The notes beneath the pieces were generated by a model that made no database searches, had not been told where the DNA came from, and saw only the letters and a program-made list of their open reading frames with translations. Source: Betaproteobacteria bacterium (GTDB lineage Bacteria > Pseudomonadota > Gammaproteobacteria > Burkholderiales > SG8-39). From it: 32,823 nt of DNA. The stretch is taken from the NCBI GenBank assembly GCA_012274205.1, contig JAAOZY010000130.1, positions 1 to 32,823 of the forward strand, given 5' to 3'. Made by a program: the position numbers and the translations under genes. Of the stretch, positions 10,003 through 27,112 are shown piece after piece (positions within the stretch are counted from its first letter, which is position 1; each line of letters starts with the position of its first letter).

Positions 10003-10112
10003 GAACCCGTTGCAAAAATGAAATTTTGCAACGCCCAATATAGGGGAGTATGAGGGGAGGTCCCCCAGGGGGACTTCCTTTGGGGCGTATCCCCTCATTT
10101 TGCAACGGACTC
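10003..10112 (+). repeat. Copy 1 of ~109-bp palindromic dispersed element
   Basis: gaacccgttgcaaaaatgaaattttgcaacgcccaatataggggagtatgaggggaggtcccccagggggacttcctttggggcgtatcccctcattttgcaacggactc; terminal inverted repeats CCGTTGCAAAA/TTTTGCAACGG. Confidence 0.93.
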
Positions 10113-11527: not shown

Positions 11528-12442
11528 ATGTCACGCCAATCAGCAACGCTCGCGATACTGTTCGCCGACATCAGCGGCAGCACCAGGTTGTATGAAGCCC
11601 TGGGGAACAGCCGCGCGCGCCACATGGTGGTGCGCTGCCTTGCGCTGATGACCGACACCCTCAATGCGCACCGGGGCACGCTGATCAAGACCATAGGCGA
11701 CGAGATCATGTGCACCTTTCCCAGCGCGGATGCCGCATTGCGCGCCGCCTGCAATATGCAGGAAGCGGTGGAACGCGGGCGGCCCGGCGGCGAGACGCCG
11801 ACGTATGTGCGCGTCGGATTCAGCTACGGCGAGGTGCTGCGCGAAGGCAAGGACGTGCACGGCGACGTGGTCAACGTGGCGGCGCGGATTACCGAAGTTG
11901 CGCGCGCGCGCCAGATTCTCGCGACGCACTCCGCGGTCGACGCGCTGTCGGCGCAGCTGCGCGACCGGGCGCAGCATGTCCGCAGGGCGAGCATCAAGGG
12001 CAGGCAGGCGCAGCTCGATCTGTTCCAGATTGCATGGCGTGCGGAAGCCGGTTCGGACACGCGCATCGGCAACCCGGCCGACCGCAAGCCCGAGGGCCTG
12101 GAGGAGCAGCTCGTCCTGCGCCATGGCGATCATCAGGTCACGCTGAGCGAGCGCAATACCACGGCGACCCTCGGCTCCGGCGCAGGCTGCTCCATCGTGG
12201 TGCGGGACGACCTGGCCTCCGCCCTGCATGCAACGGTGGAATATCAGCTGGGGAAATTCTTCGTCTCGGACCACAGCGCCAATGGAACCTACGTGCATTT
12301 CAGCGGCGGCGAGGGCGTGCGCCTGGTCGGCAACGAAACCCTGCTGCGCGGTTCGGGCGCAATCGTGCTGGGACGGCCCTTGTCCGGCGGTTCCGCAAAA
12401 ATCATCGGCTTCGCGGTACACCTGACCCCGACCGCCGGCTAG
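11528..12442 (+). CDS. Class III adenylate/guanylate cyclase domain protein with C-terminal FHA domain
   Basis: LFADISGSTRLYEALG, LIKTIGDEIMCTFPS, VHGDVVNVAARI (CHD motifs); then LGSGAGCSIVVRDDLASALHATVEYQLGKFFVSDHSANGTYV (FHA). Confidence 0.92.
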   Translation: MSRQSATLAILFADISGSTRLYEALGNSRARHMVVRCLALMTDTLNAHRGTLIKTIGDEIMCTFPSADAALRAACNMQEAVERGRPGGETPTYVRVGFSYGEVLREGKDVHGDVVNVAARITEVARARQILATHSAVDALSAQLRDRAQHVRRASIKGRQAQLDLFQIAWRAEAGSDTRIGNPADRKPEGLEEQLVLRHGDHQVTLSERNTTATLGSGAGCSIVVRDDLASALHATVEYQLGKFFVSDHSANGTYVHFSGGEGVRLVGNETLLRGSGAIVLGRPLSGGSAKIIGFAVHLTPTAG

Positions 12443-12551
12443 GAATCCGTTGCGAAATGAAATTTTGCAACGGCTGATATAGGGGAGTATGAGGGGAGGT
12501 CCCCCAAGGGGACTTCCTTCGGGGCGTATCCCCTCATGATGCAACAGACTC
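12443..12551 (+). repeat. Copy 2 of ~109-bp palindromic dispersed element
   Basis: gaatccgttgcgaaatgaaattttgcaacggctgatataggggagtatgaggggaggtcccccaaggggacttccttcggggcgtatcccctcatgatgcaacagactc; begins at the nucleotide after the cyclase stop codon. Confidence 0.93.
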
Positions 12552-26969: not shown

Positions 26970-26993
26970 GGTCCGTTTCCTGTTTTGTAGTTG

Positions 26994-27102
26994 GAGTTCA
27001 TTTCAAAACGAGGGAATATCCCATGTGGGGACTTCCTTCGGGGCGCATCCCCTCATTCTCCCCTAGATCAGAGGCCATTTCAGTAATTCTGAAATGGCAT
27101 CT
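26994..27102 (-). repeat. Copy 3 of ~109-bp palindromic dispersed element (divergent arms, inverted centre)
   Basis: Minus-strand: AGATGCCATTTCAGAATTACTGAAATGGCCTCTGATCTAGGGGAGAATGAGGGGATGCGCCCCGAAGGAAGTCCCCACATGGGATATTCCCTCGTTTTGAAATGAACTCCAA; aligns end to end with copies 1 and 2; perfect 10-bp hairpin at 27074-27098. Confidence 0.88.
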
Positions 27103-27112
27103 TGGATAAGGC

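Follow-up and report, generated by a model that had tools for sequence, protein, structure and literature searches.

We believe that the centre of one of three related palindromic elements in the window (the whole stretch of 32,823 nt that we analysed, contig JAAOZY010000130.1, from a 3.86 Mb draft genome of a Betaproteobacteria bacterium) is turned relative to its flanks because it is probably a unit of its own, a 27-nt mobile hairpin that inserts into loops in either orientation. The unit and its borders, the empty and filled forms of its host element, the recurrence of the turned state, a range of unrelated targets and one clean orthologous presence/absence are all demonstrated below. The initial annotation had described the flip of the core, and to that extent its interpretation is supported, but it did not recognise the core as a mobile unit in its own right.

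Copies in the window

The three copies of the palindromic element are all intergenic. Copy 1 is found before a short-chain dehydrogenase gene, the neighbours of copy 2 are a cyclase/FHA gene and an ABC transporter ATPase gene, and copy 3 has a DUF202 gene on one side and an HpaB-type hydroxylase gene on the other. The features are as follows.

10003..10112, + strand: host element copy 1, MITE-like, form A, ends approximate
10061..10087, + strand: 27-nt core unit of copy 1, placed by strand-wise comparison
12442..12551, + strand: host element copy 2, MITE-like, form A, ends approximate
12500..12526, + strand: 27-nt core unit of copy 2, placed by strand-wise comparison
26994..27101, - strand: host element copy 3, MITE-like, form B, with GA..TC ends as read from the sequence
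27010..27016, no strand: left arm of the outer stem of copy 3 (GAGGGAA), by reading
27019..27045, + strand: 27-nt core unit of copy 3, running opposite to its own host element, by strand-wise comparison
27048..27054, no strand: right arm of the outer stem of copy 3 (TCCCCTC), by reading

The core of copy 2 matches the copy 3 region at 23/27 positions on the same strand and 16/27 on the opposite strand (the best of 2000 shuffles reached 19), and the 26-nt left flank of copy 2 matches copy 3 at 23/26 positions on the opposite strand and 12/26 on the same strand (shuffle maximum 17). Because of these match counts, we conclude that the core and the main flank run in opposite directions. The short right flank, 20 nt long, is uninformative at this copy, with 13 matches on either strand. 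The flip reported for copy 3 is thus borne out, and the letters given for the copies were correct. The inverted segment had been described as the central stem at 27009-27055; measured from stem to stem, this region is 27010-27054, and exactly 27 nt inside it are turned rather than the whole stem.

An Rfam scan of the window gave no match. At 592-677 the window also has three short CCCCGCGAGAAGCGGGGCTTTCTTT-type repeats in a row, which look terminator-like.

The host element

Similarity searches found dozens of copies of the family in its own genome (the best 40 candidates were scored), and our description of it rests on 80 retrieved stretches plus the window copies. The ends of the host elements are inverted, GA..TC. 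The elements also have a terminal hairpin, which belongs to one of three kinds (types GTTGCAAAAT, GTAACAAAA and GGCCATTTC), and a second stem, GAGGGGA..TCCCCTC. Copy 3 is bordered by 3-base direct repeats, TTG, at 26991-26993 and 27102-27104 as we read the sequence, and the whole element is missing at the orthologous place in four species (L277-L280). The orthologous loci of copies 1 and 2 in relatives likewise had no match to the element. Since elements are missing at orthologous places and TTG stands on both sides of copy 3, we consider the host itself to be mobile and MITE-like. Like bacterial MITEs it has, by inspection, inverted ends and a short target duplication and is non-coding, and it is absent from orthologous places; it differs from them in that its loop houses another mobile unit. 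We take its ends to resemble IS5-type ends.

Empty and filled states

The centre of the host element occurs in three states: empty (E), with the core in direction A, or with the core in direction B. The classified tree set of 66 elements has 32 A, 15 B and 19 E, and consists of those that passed a classification script, which excluded some visible elements such as L101 (form B). Copies 1 and 2 are form A and copy 3 is form B. Comparing core orientation across the genomic copies had been proposed as a check of the flip, and in this one classified set 15 of the 47 filled elements have the flipped core. The empty form reads GAGGGGAGG/TATCCCCTC and ends in a perfect stem that has a short loop (most commonly GAGGGGA-GGTA-TCCCCTC). 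Each of the three kinds of terminal hairpin occurs with A, with B and with E; the single E row of the GTAAC kind is doubtful (an earlier script placed it in the CCATTTC kind).

What is turned in form B is exactly the 27-mer TCCCCCAAGGGGACTTCCTTCGGGGCG, and the loop edges (AGA..TA and similar) stay with the flanks. All 15 B copies share the same loop bond with A. On the flank tree, the 15 B rows need 15 changes, of which well supported branches force at least 5, and a single B clade is rejected (AU p = 2.5e-7); this tree has few columns and most of its forks are open, so it does not fix the exact number of events. G adjoins the insert in 24/28 A copies and 5/15 B copies, and in B the commonest base there is A (Fisher p 0.001, which is nominal as the rows are related; 28 of the 32 A rows were counted, after four whose left edge is shortened had been set aside).

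Some cores are longer, with 21, 42 or 70 nt of extra hairpin (TCCCGTCAAGCGGGATCGAGA and nested derivatives) inside the core's own loop. We saw this at L053-L056, L059, L107, L109, L113 and L136, in both A and B hosts.

The 27-mer outside the host family

With at most 2 mismatches the 27-mer is present in 14/14 genomes of the genus, and the backward pattern gave 0 hits. A scan of genome contigs found at least 112 stretches with the 27-mer; among the 80 listed, most were from Betaproteobacteria and Xanthomonadales. A class-wide draw found it in 1/114, the own genome only, so the unit is patchy and not universal. The viral contigs that we scanned had 0 hits.

Besides MITE loops, the 27-mer occurs in head-to-tail arrays of period 27 and in many unrelated places, which are often the loops of other palindromic repeats. 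Examples of such repeats are GTGGGAGCGGCG/TAAGCCGCGA, CATTCCGAGCG/CAGCGAGGAAT, ATTCCGGCTTG/CGCCGGAATGA, TTCGCGAG/CAAGCTCGCTC and CTTTTCTTTG/TCTTCCAAAGA, and some of the target palindromes could, judging by eye, be GTAG- or CGTC-type REPs. In the sequences compared, we found a natural uninterrupted counterpart (at most 2 changes) for 36/113 non-tandem, non-MITE sites, and five shuffled pairings gave 1, 1, 3, 3 and 3; the first count includes one spurious self-match (L198), one MITE-type context (L147) and one site matched by orthologous loci that were retrieved on purpose (L229). At one site in Paraburkholderia and relatives, CGAAGTGG/TAGCG, the 27-mer is present in two genomes, the site is exactly empty in four, and it is changed or different in three. 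This clean presence/absence site has no obvious hairpin.

No target duplication is visible at the insert beyond a one-base ambiguity. At sites other than the MITE loops, the base after the insert is T in 78, C in 38 and A in 4 of 120. G precedes the unit in 10/10 non-MITE copies of the own genome, which were found without requiring G; the scan behind most of the named loci did demand a preceding G, and the bias is partly imposed there. When the flanks of 40 non-redundant sites were joined, the mean stem across the junction was 4.45; shuffled pairs averaged 3.43, and 3.37 was the average at random G^Y points (0/300 each). The folding energy of the joined flanks also beat shuffled pairs (0/300) but did not clearly beat random G^Y points, of which 27/300 were as low. 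Because the stem lengths beat both controls and the folding energy does not, a preference of the 27-mer for hairpin targets is supported, but it is not absolute. The unit itself is an imperfect palindrome with a predicted hairpin (z -0.85 and -1.60 on the two strands). These values are not clearly beyond composition, and strong intrinsic folding of the 27-mer is not supported.

Several of these contexts have features of their own. The head-to-tail arrays run up to five or more units (L211, L243, L192, L227, L068, L088 and L092). The core is also embedded in GCCTCCAAATGCGG..CCGCATTTGGAGGC, a longer palindromic repeat, attC-like by eye, which recurs in several genomes (L085, L090, L186, L241 and L242). 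In Burkholderia (L168 and L231) a larger repeat of ~200-300 nt contains the core, and the orthologous place in L176 is without the repeat.

How the core may be placed

In the model that we favor, TCCCCCAAGGGGACTTCCTTCGGGGCG would insert with a purine before it, nearly always G, and a pyrimidine after it; it would leave no visible target duplication and would prefer targets that are able to fold into a hairpin loop. A unit entering the loop of the host element from one strand would give form A, as in copies 1 and 2, and a unit entering from the other strand would give form B, as in copy 3. The unit may move as single-stranded DNA by means of an enzyme supplied in trans, with extruded hairpins exposing the target. 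The hairpin shape, the polarity and the loop targets resemble single-strand transposition. An enzyme of the HUH type, or another single-strand transposase, is a guess on our part that we rate as less likely than not.

Y1_Tnp genes are present in 18/19 genomes tested, with one genome lacking them, and G012 has cores with no Y1_Tnp match. Over about 95 kb examined, only 1/30 Y1_Tnp loci had a core nearby, and there was none at the own-genome gene. We rejected the core as a repeat that flanks RAYT genes on these counts.

Alternative explanations

The bases beside the insert bear on whether B is an A core that was turned in place. The A beside the insert in B copies means that, on the B strand, a pyrimidine comes after the insert, as it does at other sites, and this fits entry from the other strand. 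Had B been produced by turning A in place, the base would be expected to stay G; it is mostly not G, and separate insertion fits better, on a nominal test of related rows. Precise in-place inversion of the 27-mer, by a site-specific recombinase or a hairpin flip, would interconvert A and B, and the use of one loop bond by all 15 B copies agrees with it. Site-specific inversion had been suggested for copy 3, and we did find a candidate for it: L130 (G004) and L071 (G000) have orthologous outer flanks and elements at the same place with cores in opposite directions, and among 1000 shuffles, 1 exceeded the match between their left arms and 18 exceeded that between their right arms. This pair, which is between species and decayed, is the only locus with both orientations and resembles one old element with opposite cores. 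It may be two insertions, as the arms of any two family members would align. Insertion is also needed in any case for the empty forms and the unrelated targets, and we regard in-place inversion as rather unlikely. Insertion from either strand has its own difficulty, because B copies follow A and non-MITE units nearly always follow G, which makes B an exception to the usual rule of a preceding G.

The scattered B labels on the flank tree could also come from gene conversion or recombination between elements that transfers ready-made A or B cores, and one genome does have many similar stems. Such exchange would leave the origin of the first B and the unrelated targets unexplained, and conversion through the stems would take the loop edges along; we think it improbable. 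The edges contradict a turn of the whole centre by recombination across the outer palindrome or by template switching, both of which had been proposed earlier. The inverted 7-nt stems for it exist, but turning the whole centre predicts ATA..CC edges and 0/15 B copies have them. Copy 3 does not show the string expected if the switch lay between the CCCC/GGGG arms of the core. We give the turning of the whole centre almost no chance. The same is true of a near-symmetric ancestral centre that drifted into two forms with no movement, which the initial annotation had named as the way both forms could arise without inversion. The unit is an imperfect palindrome, as this would need, but the two orientations are distinct (23/27 versus 16/27), the unit also occurs alone, and the core-less elements contradict it.

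Relation to known repeats

IS1397 is an insertion sequence that targets REPs. Insertion sequences of this kind, as covered in Tobes and Pareja 2006 (PMC1525189), share with the 27-mer that mobile DNA uses palindromic repeats as its target, but they are full elements with transposase genes and the 27-mer is without coding capacity. The nearest precedent for the 27-mer that we found in the open-access literature is the insertion of some REPs within palindromes reported by Di Nocera 2013 (PMC3733652): GTAG-23 of T. roseum has hundreds of target palindromes, and there are cases in A. variabilis and H. neapolitanus as well. In the same source, REP elements of the GTAG and CGTC superfamilies share with the 27-mer a hairpin of 20-40 nt and many intergenic copies; they differ in that most single 27-mer copies are without a GTAG or CGTC tag, and in that the 27-mer forms head-to-tail arrays of period 27, occupies the loops of several unrelated repeats and takes both orientations in one host family.

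Under a broad definition the 27-mer is REP-like, with many copies of an imperfect 20-40 nt hairpin (predicted). Its sites read N and G, then the unit, then T or C, with no constant tetranucleotide such as the GTAG tag at the stem, and it is not a repeat that flanks its own RAYT gene as GTAG REPs are. Its stem starts with CCCC, in place of the CGTC tag with A/T pairs at the stem base; CGTC is seen in the head-to-tail arrays. We place the 27-mer in neither superfamily because most of its single copies are without the tags. REPINs and their RAYTs, as described in PMC8266576, are similar in having a short hairpin whose movement is attributed to an HUH enzyme that acts in trans on single strands; the 27-mer differs in flanking RAYT genes at only 1/30 loci, and the inverted pairs typical of REPINs are not the arrangement that we see. 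In the open-access literature we did not find the letters of the 27-mer as a bacterial repeat, and only papers on human LATS1 matched.

Taken a step further, it is conceivable, though we are somewhat doubtful, that the 27-nt unit, as one of the smallest DNA units to behave as mobile, targets the hairpin loops of other repeats and receives 21-nt hairpins in its own loop, and that palindromes thereby nest through loop-directed single-strand insertion. REP-like repeats are common in bacteria and how they spread is poorly known. The 27-mer, whose borders are exact, whose orientation is free and which has empty sites and many families of targets, is a clean system for finding the enzyme, and it is also suited to testing hairpin-guided insertion. 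Flipped cores in palindromic repeats need not signal phase variation.
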